The translations under genes were made by a program, and so were the position numbers. The notes below the pieces were generated by a model. That model saw nothing but the letters and a program-made list of their open reading frames with translations, did no database searches and was not told the DNA's origin. DNA of 64,000 nucleotides. It comes from Phycisphaerales bacterium. Lineage in GTDB: Bacteria > Planctomycetota > Phycisphaerae > Phycisphaerales > UBA1924. Of the stretch, positions 59,773-63,152 are shown piece by piece (within the stretch, counting starts at the first letter, position 1; the number at the start of each line of letters is the position of its first letter). Where the stretch lies: positions 62,001 to 126,000 of the forward strand of contig JADYYE010000036.1 of NCBI GenBank assembly GCA_020853815.1, read 5' to 3'.

Positions 59773-61299
59773 ATGCCGACGACACACAACACGCACCCCG
59801 CCGCCCCACCCCGCATCGTCATCATCGGCGCCGGCCCCACCGGTCTCGGTGCCGCCTATCGCCTCAAGGAACTCGGCTACACCAACTTCCACATGTACGA
59901 CCGCCACCCCTATCTGGGCGGCCTGTCGCACAGCTTCGTCGACCCCGTCGGCTTCACCTGGGACATCGGCGGGCACGTCATGTTCAGCCACTACGACTAC
60001 TACGACAAGTGCTTCGACACCCTCATGGGCAACGACTACACGCTCAACGACCGCGAGAGCTGGGTCCGCATGATGGGACGCTGGGTCCCGTACCCCTTCC
60101 AGAACAACATCCGCCACCTCCCGCCCCAGGCCTGCTACGAGTGCCTCAGCGGCCTGATTCGCGCGCAATCAGGCCGCGGCACGACCAAGCACCACTCCGA
60201 GGCCGCCAACTTCGGCGAGTTCATCGACGCCGTCTTCGGCGAGGGCATCGCCAAGCACTTCATGCGCCCGTACAACTTCAAGGTCTGGGCCCACCCGCCC
60301 GAGATGATGAACAAGCAGTGGATCGGCGAACGCGTCGCCGTCATCGACGTCGAACGTGCCCTGAAAAACGTGGTCCTCGGCCTCGACGATTTCGGCTGGG
60401 GACCAAATAACCGCTTCAAGTTCCCGCTCAAGGGCGGCACCGGCGAGTTCTATCACCGCTTCGCCAAGCCCCTCGCCGGCCATTTCACCCTGCAGCGCAC
60501 CGTCAAGTCGATCGATGTCGACGCCAAGCTCATCACCTTCGCCGACGGCGGCACCGAGCGCTACGACACGCTCATCACCGCCTTGCCGCTCGACGTGCTC
60601 TGCCGCGACATCCTGAAGGGCGAGGTCCCCGCAACGATCCGCGACGCCGCGTGCCGCCTGCGCCATTCCTCCGGCTACATGGTGGGCCTTGGCCTCAAGC
60701 GCCCGTGCCCCTCGACCAAGTCGTGGATGTACTTCCCCGATTCCGATTCGCCGTTCTATCGCGTGACCTACCTCAGCAACTATTCGCCCTTCATGACGCC
60801 CGAGCCGTACACGACCGACGCCGCCGGCCGGCGCAACGGACGCTTCTACTCCCTCCTCTGCGAAACAAGCTGCAGCGAGTTCAAGCCGGTCGATGGCTCG
60901 CGCATCGTCGAAGACACGATCAGGGGCCTGGAAAGCTCGGGGCTCCTCGAGCCCGGCGAACGCGACGACATCGTCAGCACCTGGACCTATTACGCCGATT
61001 ACAGCTACCCCACGCCCACCGTCGACCGCGACGCCATCCTCGCGCAGGTGATCCCGTGGCTGGAATCACGCGGCATCTACAGCCGCGGGCGCTTCGGCAT
61101 GTGGAAGTACGAAGTCGCCAACACCGACCACACGCTGATGCAGGGCGTCGAGGTCGTCGACCGCCTCCTGAACAACGTGCCGGAAAGAACGATCGGCCTG
61201 GTCTACACCATCACCGACGACGGCCGCCAGGCCGCCACCCACGAACGCTCGTCCCTCGCCGGCTCGGGCGAAAAGCGCGTGGTCGAGGTGAAGGGGTAG
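59773..61299 (+). CDS. glf: Eukaryote-type UDP-galactopyranose mutase
   Basis: A 508-residue flavoprotein with the FAD-binding GAGPTGLGAAYRL and then a series of motifs that follow the fungal type of UDP-galactopyranose mutase. These are FMRPYNFKVWA, WIGERVAV, FPLKGGTGEFYHR, MYFPDSDSPFYRVTYLSNYSP and GRFGMWKYEVANTDHTLMQG. The enzyme interconverts UDP-galactopyranose and UDP-galactofuranose, a precursor of surface glycans. Typical bacterial Glf proteins are shorter (about 370-390 residues) and differ in these motifs. Divergent members of the NAD(P)/FAD amine-oxidase group remain an alternative. No glycosyltransferase is adjacent. Confidence 0.75.
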   Translation: MPTTHNTHPAAPPRIVIIGAGPTGLGAAYRLKELGYTNFHMYDRHPYLGGLSHSFVDPVGFTWDIGGHVMFSHYDYYDKCFDTLMGNDYTLNDRESWVRMMGRWVPYPFQNNIRHLPPQACYECLSGLIRAQSGRGTTKHHSEAANFGEFIDAVFGEGIAKHFMRPYNFKVWAHPPEMMNKQWIGERVAVIDVERALKNVVLGLDDFGWGPNNRFKFPLKGGTGEFYHRFAKPLAGHFTLQRTVKSIDVDAKLITFADGGTERYDTLITALPLDVLCRDILKGEVPATIRDAACRLRHSSGYMVGLGLKRPCPSTKSWMYFPDSDSPFYRVTYLSNYSPFMTPEPYTTDAAGRRNGRFYSLLCETSCSEFKPVDGSRIVEDTIRGLESSGLLEPGERDDIVSTWTYYADYSYPTPTVDRDAILAQVIPWLESRGIYSRGRFGMWKYEVANTDHTLMQGVEVVDRLLNNVPERTIGLVYTITDDGRQAATHERSSLAGSGEKRVVEVKG

Positions 61300-61347
61300 A
61301 GGACTGCGAGTTTCGCTCGGCGCAGCGACACTTGATAGACTGGTCGT

Positions 61348-61785
61348 ATGGCAAAGGGAAAAAGAACAAGTCGCCGTGCCAAGTCACCCGCGCGCGTGAC
61401 CTGCAGTTGTCTGGTCCTGTGCGACGAGGTGGTTCAGACTCATGCTCGCGACAAGCACACGCTCCAGGGGATTATCGGGGCCATGGTGGCCCCTTCCATC
61501 CAGCCGATCGCGGGTCCATTTGTCGCGTATCTCCGATTATCCAACGTACATTCCGATGAACGGGTGACCGTGGCGCTCGAATCACCAAGCGGCGAGAAAG
61601 TCTGGGAATTCGAGGCCCAACTTCTCAACCGGAACGATCCGCTTGCCGTACATACCCTCATCGCTCGGATTGGACAGTTTCGACTGCCTGCGTCGGGTCG
61701 GCATATGCTTGTTGCGAGCCACGACGGCGTGCCGGTCGCCCAAAGCCCCATCGAAGTGCGAATAATCGAGCTAGGTGTCGAATGA
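61348..61785 (+). CDS. DUF6941-type protein
   Basis: A 145-residue protein with a Lys/Arg-rich start. A domain resembling DUF6941 follows, with VTCSCLVLCDEVVQ then HTLQGIIGAMVAP and alternating strands (RVTVALESPSGEKVWEFEA). The function of this family is unknown, and the strand pattern suggests a small beta-sandwich. The stop overlaps the start of the next small gene by four bases, so the three genes 61348-62397 should be co-translated. It may supply a third component to the downstream MazF-type pair. Confidence 0.6.
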   Translation: MAKGKRTSRRAKSPARVTCSCLVLCDEVVQTHARDKHTLQGIIGAMVAPSIQPIAGPFVAYLRLSNVHSDERVTVALESPSGEKVWEFEAQLLNRNDPLAVHTLIARIGQFRLPASGRHMLVASHDGVPVAQSPIEVRIIELGVE

Positions 61786-62000
61786 AGCCAGAACTCTCCA
61801 ATTCGAAGCAGCCCGCGGATTTCAGCACGGAGACGACGATTGGCGGACGGCAGGCGGGCGTGAGCATCCGATGGACCGTGAAGCCCCAGACCGACTCCGC
61901 GATTGACGCGCTCAACAAGAGACTTACGGCCGAGCACACGCGGCTCGAACGTAAGGCTCGCGCGAATACCCGACGACTGACCGGCCGCGAATCGCTCTGA
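61782..62000 (+). CDS. Small antitoxin-like protein
   Basis: A 72-residue protein, charged and mainly helical towards the C-terminus (DALNKRLTAEHTRLERKARA), with a flexible N-terminal half (KPQTDSA). Size and position, directly upstream of the MazF/PemK-type gene, fit an antitoxin, but no standard DNA-binding motif (AbrB, RHH or Phd) is seen. Its ATG overlaps the DUF6941-like stop, and its own stop is followed by the toxin gene after 16 bases. Confidence 0.55.
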   Translation: MKPELSNSKQPADFSTETTIGGRQAGVSIRWTVKPQTDSAIDALNKRLTAEHTRLERKARANTRRLTGRESL

Positions 62001-62016
62001 CCGGTACACTCGCGCT

Positions 62017-62397
62017 GTGAATCGCGCGATCAGACAAGGACAAGTCTACTGGGTCGACGACGTCCCACCCCTCGATGGCGAGCGGATGAAGCGTCGCCCG
62101 GTGGTCGTGCTCAGTCCGCCACAGATCACAAGCGGGCCGGATGAGAAGTTGATCGTTGTCGCGATCACGACCAAGCCTGGACGCCGCAGCGCGATCGCCA
62201 TCCCCTCGAAAGCGACGCACGAGCGGAGTACGTCCGGGCTCACGAAGCCCGCGTGGGCTGTGCCTGCATGGTTTCTTTCGGTGGACCGATCTCGTCTCGT
62301 GGACCTCGCGGGCTTCGTATCTGGCACGACACTCTCTTCAATCATGGAAGCGACCCTTGCGGCCATGGATGCTGCGCAGGGCGGCGGATCGCCGTAG
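62017..62397 (+). CDS. MazF/PemK-type mRNA endonuclease toxin
   Basis: A 126-residue protein of the PemK/MazF family with GQVYWVDD near the N-terminus, RRPVVVLSPP, and strands ending LIVVAITTKPG, the core SH3-like barrel. The C-terminal part keeps FLSVDRSRLVDLAGFVSG. Such toxins cut mRNA at short motifs and are held off by a partner antitoxin. GTG start at 62017. The proximity of the small upstream gene and the DUF6941-like gene makes a three-gene unit. Confidence 0.82.
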   Translation: MNRAIRQGQVYWVDDVPPLDGERMKRRPVVVLSPPQITSGPDEKLIVVAITTKPGRRSAIAIPSKATHERSTSGLTKPAWAVPAWFLSVDRSRLVDLAGFVSGTTLSSIMEATLAAMDAAQGGGSP

Positions 62398-62431
62398 CTT
62401 GACTCTCCTCCCTCCTCCGCCACCATCCCTC

Positions 62432-62983
62432 ATGGCCACTTCGCTCAACTCCGTCGACCCCGCCCTCGCCGATTTTCTCCGCGCCCAGCACGTCTTCTTC
62501 GTCGCGACCGCGCCCCTCTCGCCCCACGGGCACATCAACCTCTCGCCCAAGGGCCTCGACACCTTCGCGATCCTCGATCCGCGCACCGTCGCCTACCTCG
62601 ATCTCACCGGCAGCGGCGTCGAAACCATCGCCCACCTCAAGGAAAACGCCCGCATCGTCCTCATGTTCTGCGCCTTCGATGGCCCGCCGAAGATCGTTCG
62701 CATCCACGGCACGGGCCGCGCGATCGAAGCTCCATCCCCCGATTTCGAGCCGCTCGCCGCCCGCTTCCCTGCGCGCCCCGGCGCGCGGGCCATCATCCGC
62801 ATCGACGTCGCGCGCGTCGCCGTCTCGTGCGGCTTCGGCGTCCCGCTCATGGACTTCAAGGGAGAACGCCCGACCCTCGACGACTGGTCACGCGCCAAGG
62901 GCGACGACGGCCTGCGCGCTTACCAACGCAAGAAGAACGCCGCCAGCCTCGACGGCCTGCCGGGGCTCGGCGCGCATGACTGA
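62432..62983 (+). CDS. Pyridoxamine 5'-phosphate oxidase-family protein
   Basis: A 183-residue protein with the flavin-reductase/PNPOx split-barrel layout: HVFFVATAPLSPHGHINLSPKG, then RTVAYLDLTGSG, VETIAHLKENARIVLMFCAF and KIVRIHGTGRAI. The family includes FMN-binding oxidoreductases and heme or F420-dependent variants, so the exact substrate is not known. The ATG at 62432 gives the conserved start. It follows the MazF-type gene by 34 bases but is unlikely to be part of the TA unit. Confidence 0.82.
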   Translation: MATSLNSVDPALADFLRAQHVFFVATAPLSPHGHINLSPKGLDTFAILDPRTVAYLDLTGSGVETIAHLKENARIVLMFCAFDGPPKIVRIHGTGRAIEAPSPDFEPLAARFPARPGARAIIRIDVARVAVSCGFGVPLMDFKGERPTLDDWSRAKGDDGLRAYQRKKNAASLDGLPGLGAHD

Positions 62984-63020: not shown

Positions 63021-63062
63021 CAGTTCCATTGCCCATTGCCCATTGCCCATTTCCAATTGCCT
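63021..63062. repeat. Heptanucleotide array downstream of the PNPOx-family gene
   Basis: CAGTTCC, CATTGCC (three times), CATTTCC, AATTGCC, starting 37 bases after the stop codon. In CC-first register this is CCATTGC, the same frame as the CCNAGTG arrays at 19531, 24410, 36107 and 54004. Confidence 0.85.
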
Positions 63063-63152
63063 CGTCCGCGCACTCGACGCTCAACCAACGTCGATTCCAG
63101 TTGAGCCGAGTTCATCCGCACGCGCCTCTCCGTATTCCGTTAGCATCTCCCC

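Follow-up and report, generated by a model that had tools for sequence, protein, structure and literature searches.

DUF6941 as a candidate cofactor of headless antitoxins in three-gene toxin–antitoxin modules of planctomycetes

The window, by which we mean the whole 64,000-nucleotide stretch of Phycisphaerales DNA analysed here, carries at 61348–62397 a DUF6941 gene, a small open reading frame and a PemK/MazF-family toxin gene in tandem. In our best explanation, which we consider about evenly poised between right and wrong, these form a three-gene type II toxin–antitoxin (TA) module with MazF as the toxin and DUF6941 as a cofactor that holds a headless antitoxin. The wider claim, to which we give slightly less than even odds, is that DUF6941 is an antitoxin cofactor of planctomycetes, unrelated to SecB and independent of TA family, that acts as a portable Ig-like platform replacing the antitoxin head (a split antitoxin) and represents a second evolutionary class of toxin–antitoxin–chaperone (TAC)-like systems.

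The window belongs to contig 79 of a 4.5-Mb genome, and all three genes of the module are on the + strand. The first, the proposed antitoxin cofactor (61348–61785), encodes 145 aa and matches PF22091 at 37.3 bits against a cut-off of 27 (E 4.2e-9). The second, the proposed headless antitoxin (61782–62000), encodes 72 aa with no match in Pfam, NCBIfam or PADLOC; PADLOC also gave no match for the three-gene module. The third (62017–62397) has a GTG start and encodes 126 aa that match PF02452 PemK_toxin at 45.2 bits (cut-off 23.1, E 1.2e-11). It can be aligned to the solved MazF6 and MazF7 of M. tuberculosis and retains the basic KRRP motif, and on this similarity its product is a predicted PemK/MazF toxin with predicted endoribonuclease activity and toxicity. 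The DUF6941 stop and the start of the small frame share the four bases ATGA (61782–61785, + strand), as read from the sequence, and this overlap would couple translation of the small protein to that of DUF6941. A gap of 16 bp separates the small frame from the start of the MazF gene. The tandem arrangement, the four-base overlap and the lack of AbrB, RHH or Phd features in the small protein had all been described in the initial annotation. All three open reading frames were verified, the overlap recurs at other loci, and the small protein is without a Pfam or NCBIfam family. The upstream neighbour is a flavin amine-oxidase family gene that ends at 61299, and the first frame downstream of the MazF gene begins at 62433. 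Promoter and terminator scans gave nothing informative.

The module is accessory, and the site that it occupies is variable. A sister genome (G298; locus L238, contig G298:C118) has the left flanking gene at 95% identity and the right flanking region at 86%, and between these same flanks (window 61300–62432) it carries unrelated genes spanning 3.1 kb, the module being absent. The other three genomes of the genus (83–94% complete) did not yield the module either. The GC content is 58–64% in the module versus 63–73% around it. At about 63025–63065 the window contains a repeat of some 36 bp (CCATTGCCCATTTCC-type), many copies of which occur in this genome and in one other of the genus.

The surroundings of 130 DUF6941 loci were read in the class, from which 298 genomes were sampled. 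PF22091 is present in 110 of those 298 genomes and, across the phylum, in 185 of 392. In 23 of the 130 loci DUF6941 is followed first by a small gene and then by MazF, where about 0.01 would be expected by chance given some 140 PemK matches in the 298 genomes and, by our own estimate, about 3,800 genes per genome. The same search outside the class but within the phylum added three linked loci, two with MazF (L199 and L213) and one with HicBA (L186). Scans of public genome contigs returned no loci with a single-protein query and three with a clade query, two of them already known. An independent find of these scans is L189, a fifth member of the window's DUF6941 clade, which shares with the window the gene order, the ATGA overlap and the C-terminus of the small protein (..KASTKRLIGRESV versus ..RANTRRLTGRESL). 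The search for the same order in other genomes that had been called for at the outset thus found it conserved, at 23 MazF loci in the class plus L189, L199 and L213. Relatives of the small protein itself sit in the same position at L157, L159 and L189. All 24 linked small antitoxins scored for junctions start at −14 to +30 nt from the end of the DUF6941 stop codon, and in 11 of the 24 the junction is a four-base overlap. Plasmids and viral contigs gave no relatives at the sensitivity used, and none of the papers covered by a literature search names DUF6941.

The partners are not confined to MazF. In four of the 130 loci DUF6941 is followed by HicB–HicA, with the HicBs starting only a few bases away from the DUF6941 stop, and in one (L155, genome G086) a small gene comes next and then a RelE/ParE-type toxin gene (PF05016, E 7e-6). 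At L140 the HicA_toxin match reaches 1.4e-13. Four linked HicBs match HicB_lk_antitox at 2e-10 to 1e-4, two of them above the cut-off, and the L140 HicB has a weak UPF0150 match only. The initial annotation had suggested that DUF6941 is the third part of a MazF unit. Its evolutionary behaviour, in gene order, overlap and correlated divergence, fits a third part, but a MazF-specific unit is too narrow, since related DUF6941 proteins also head HicBA and RelE/ParE-type modules.

The remaining 102 of the 130 loci have no match to MazF, HicBA or RelE/ParE-type toxins, and such solo DUF6941 genes are widespread in the phylum. A Pfam search of the frames downstream of them (150 of 162) found no toxin among the families listed (25 of 53), which include a release factor, bactofilin, glycosyltransferases, ParA and others. 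At L098, L104, L110 and L112 the solo gene adjoins what appears by eye to be an xseB-like gene. Since DUF6941 is mostly found without TA genes, its basic function could be something else. Wide occurrence of DUF6941 without MazF had been named beforehand as speaking against the association, and taken literally this is what we see; the association still stands, with most solo copies in other clades.

This was read from a tree of 129 DUF6941 proteins, in which only supported groups were used because many branches are long and the tree is a quick search. Linked copies cluster, with 9 label changes compared to a mean of 25.8 when labels are shuffled. The four HicBA-linked proteins of the class all group together (SH-aLRT 97). 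The window's DUF6941 groups with those of G026 and G074, which precede MazF, and of G086, which precedes RelE/ParE (SH-aLRT 99), so that the toxin changed within a single clade. Linked and solo copies occur together in 11 of the 26 genomes that have a linked copy, and G239 and G266 each have one MazF-linked, one HicBA-linked and one solo DUF6941. The copies free of TA genes are mostly separate paralogues, and their abundance does not undo the association of DUF6941 with TA genes. Pairwise distances of DUF6941, MazF and the small protein are correlated (Mantel r 0.74, 0.74 and 0.81; p 2e-4, the minimum reachable with 5000 permutations), as would be expected of parts inherited together. A MazF module in G271 (L070, 3406–3774, − strand) has a DUF6941 close to that of L066, and its antitoxin, of 123 aa and HicB-like by eye with no Pfam match, is unlike the small antitoxin of L066; this is possibly another exchange of partners.

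The antitoxins suggest what DUF6941 may do. None of the 27 linked small antitoxins (that of the window and 26 counterparts) matches any Pfam or NCBIfam family. For comparison, small frames upstream of MazFs of the same class without an adjoining DUF6941 were collected, giving 79 candidate frames at 68 loci; their Pfam matches are to MazE (14), RHH_1 (12), DUF2281 (6), AF2212-like (3) and a few others. Counting only the 35 named matches, which represent distinct folds, the contrast is 0 of 27 linked antitoxins versus 35 of 68 control loci (Fisher p ~3e-7), the size of which should not be over-read because the controls are unmatched by MazF subfamily. The C-termini of the linked antitoxins fall into three types, FW..EDIY..DDG, PPQ.WWD..DPF and ..RRLTGRESL, the last being that of the window's clade. 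The first type recurs in control antitoxins whose N-terminal part is AF2212-like (L268, ..FDFLSDPREDIYSESDGEAV; the head of L268 was assigned by eye). As this tail is common to antitoxins that do have a head, the C-terminal tail seems to be the toxin-binding part, and what the linked antitoxins lack is the head. Their N-terminal segments have no clear alignable motif in common; a Trp motif considered there was dropped as not significant by a rough count. The AlphaFold model of the 72-aa protein (mean pLDDT 72.4) has two low-confidence strands at residues 13–30 and a helix at 38–67 with pLDDT of about 90 and over. The linked HicBs carry an N-terminal extension of 20–40 residues: 29–49 residues precede the conserved HicB motif, versus 8–19 in nearly all unlinked HicBs, a comparison in which the controls are unmatched by HicB subfamily.

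Structure prediction of DUF6941, also proposed in the initial annotation, gave a confident model from 75 aligned sequences (mean pLDDT 92.6), all-beta with ten strands and no helix. The predicted fold is an Ig-like beta-sandwich. Foldseek and VIA-align return Ig-like and other beta-sandwiches at TM ~0.45 and Z ~9, among them the PA1606 Ig-like protein, PDE6D/UNC119, the Wzt binding domain and glycosidase domains, and searching solved structures by sequence yielded nothing beyond weak matches of Ig type, e.g., to filamin and PD-L1. As modelled, the resemblance is to a common generic sandwich and carries no function. SecB contains helices; homology of DUF6941 to SecB was considered and rejected, as Pfam gave no SecB match up to E 10 and the model is all-beta without a helix; the fold-search lists played no part in this judgement.

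DUF6941 is retained across different toxin folds, the MazF antitoxins linked to it are headless and the linked HicBs have an added N-terminal segment; on these three grounds the partner of DUF6941 is probably not the toxin but the antitoxin. In the mechanism we propose, MazF would be the toxin and the small protein an antitoxin without a folded, usually DNA-binding head. DUF6941, made just before the antitoxin and presumably coupled to it in translation, would bind the antitoxin's N-terminal strand-forming segment and keep it folded or shielded from proteolysis, and meanwhile the C-terminal segment would occupy or block MazF. If DUF6941 were lost or diverted, the antitoxin would fail and MazF would cut RNA; displacement of DUF6941 could likewise release the toxin, in the way described for CmdC in CmdTAC. 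The same cofactor would also have been combined with HicB–HicA and with a RelE/ParE-type pair. Translational coupling, toxicity, neutralisation, the contact between DUF6941 and antitoxin, the dependence of one on the other and any trigger are what we infer here.

Other roles for DUF6941 can be weighed against the same evidence. It might be the missing transcriptional regulator, autoregulating the operon by binding its operator, either by itself or together with the antitoxin, and the absence of a recognised DNA-binding domain from all 27 linked small antitoxins and the basic N-terminus of the window's DUF6941 (MAKGKRTSRRAK) would suit that role. The helix-free Ig-like model would not, only some members have the basic tail, the stretch from the upstream gene to DUF6941 shows no conspicuous operator palindrome, and the HicB extensions would be left unexplained; we consider a regulator unlikely. 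It is decidedly unlikely that DUF6941 binds the toxin directly as the real or a second neutraliser, with the small protein merely a linker. The place of DUF6941 as the first gene, its overlap with the second and the correlation of its distances with those of MazF could be read this way; against it, related DUF6941 proteins head modules whose toxins have three unrelated folds, even inside a single clade, and every module retains, immediately before the toxin gene, an antitoxin-like gene, which for HicA is a recognisable HicB.

That DUF6941 is a phage or stress sensor, which a trigger pulls off the antitoxin so that the toxin is freed, has a precedent in CmdC (PMC11618068) and would suit an accessory module that is absent from the same site in the sister genome; PADLOC, however, recognises no such module here. 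This role is quite unlikely by our reckoning, and it is an extension of the cofactor explanation, not its opposite. The idea that DUF6941 is an unrelated host gene forming a hot spot beside which TA pairs insert draws on the 102 of 130 genes that have no TA neighbour. The four-base overlaps, the placement of linked copies in separate clades with few label changes, the solo paralogues beside linked copies in 11 genomes and the correlated divergence of the module parts do not fit a mere neighbour effect, which is strongly disfavoured and hardly credible to us.

SecB-like chaperones are a well-described third partner that has recombined with several TA families. If the cofactor explanation is true, a structurally unrelated second partner has joined MazF, HicBA and RelE/ParE-type pairs in the same way, and antitoxins came to depend on a third protein on more than one occasion in evolution. 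It would also explain MazF antitoxins without a recognisable head and give a first testable function to DUF6941, a domain family found in about 40–50% of sampled planctomycete genomes.

Among known systems, the best reading by analogy is that the DUF6941 module is a tripartite TA variant working like TAC and not a SecB-type member. As in TAC (HigBA-, MqsRA- and HicAB-SecB, and CmdTAC), a third gene has recombined with several unrelated TA families, here MazF, HicBA and RelE/ParE-type, and the antitoxins have an extra terminal segment that is dissimilar among themselves. In TAC this is the chaperone-addiction (ChAD) segment bound by the SecB-like chaperone, and ChADs have no significant similarity to one another (PMC5105189); in CmdTAC, a trigger displaces CmdC from the antitoxin and the toxin is freed (PMC11618068). 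Unlike TAC, DUF6941 has no SecB match and is a predicted Ig-like beta-sandwich, it is encoded first, the segment proposed for binding lies at the antitoxin's N-terminus and the dependence of the antitoxin is presumed. Like MazEF and PemIK, the module has a PemK/MazF gene preceded by a small antitoxin-like gene; classical MazEF has two genes, whereas here the antitoxin lacks an AbrB, RHH or other recognised head and there is an extra conserved first gene overlapping by four bases. Five DUF6941 modules, four in the class and L186 outside it, end in HicB–HicA as in HicAB, yet their HicBs follow DUF6941 and bear the extension described above. HipBST, SpoIISABC and paaR-paaA-parE also have three genes per module, with unrelated third parts (a split HipA, SpoIISC and a regulator, respectively). 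We know of none of these three systems that contains DUF6941.

DUF6941 also occurs in phages. Temperate phages of Firmicutes have true DUF6941 members, reached through the best viral fold matches (TM 0.74–0.80); these members match PF22091 over the cut-off and phrog_5881 and lie near the integrase in Anoxybacillus phage A403 (MG969427.1; L312, 35864–36822) and Leuconostoc phage phiMH1 (L313, 2917–3833). There, DUF6941 is directly followed by a coiled-coil protein of 167–184 aa, which in A403 has a C-terminal membrane-like segment. This arrangement is possibly another accessory cassette with DUF6941 as the first gene.
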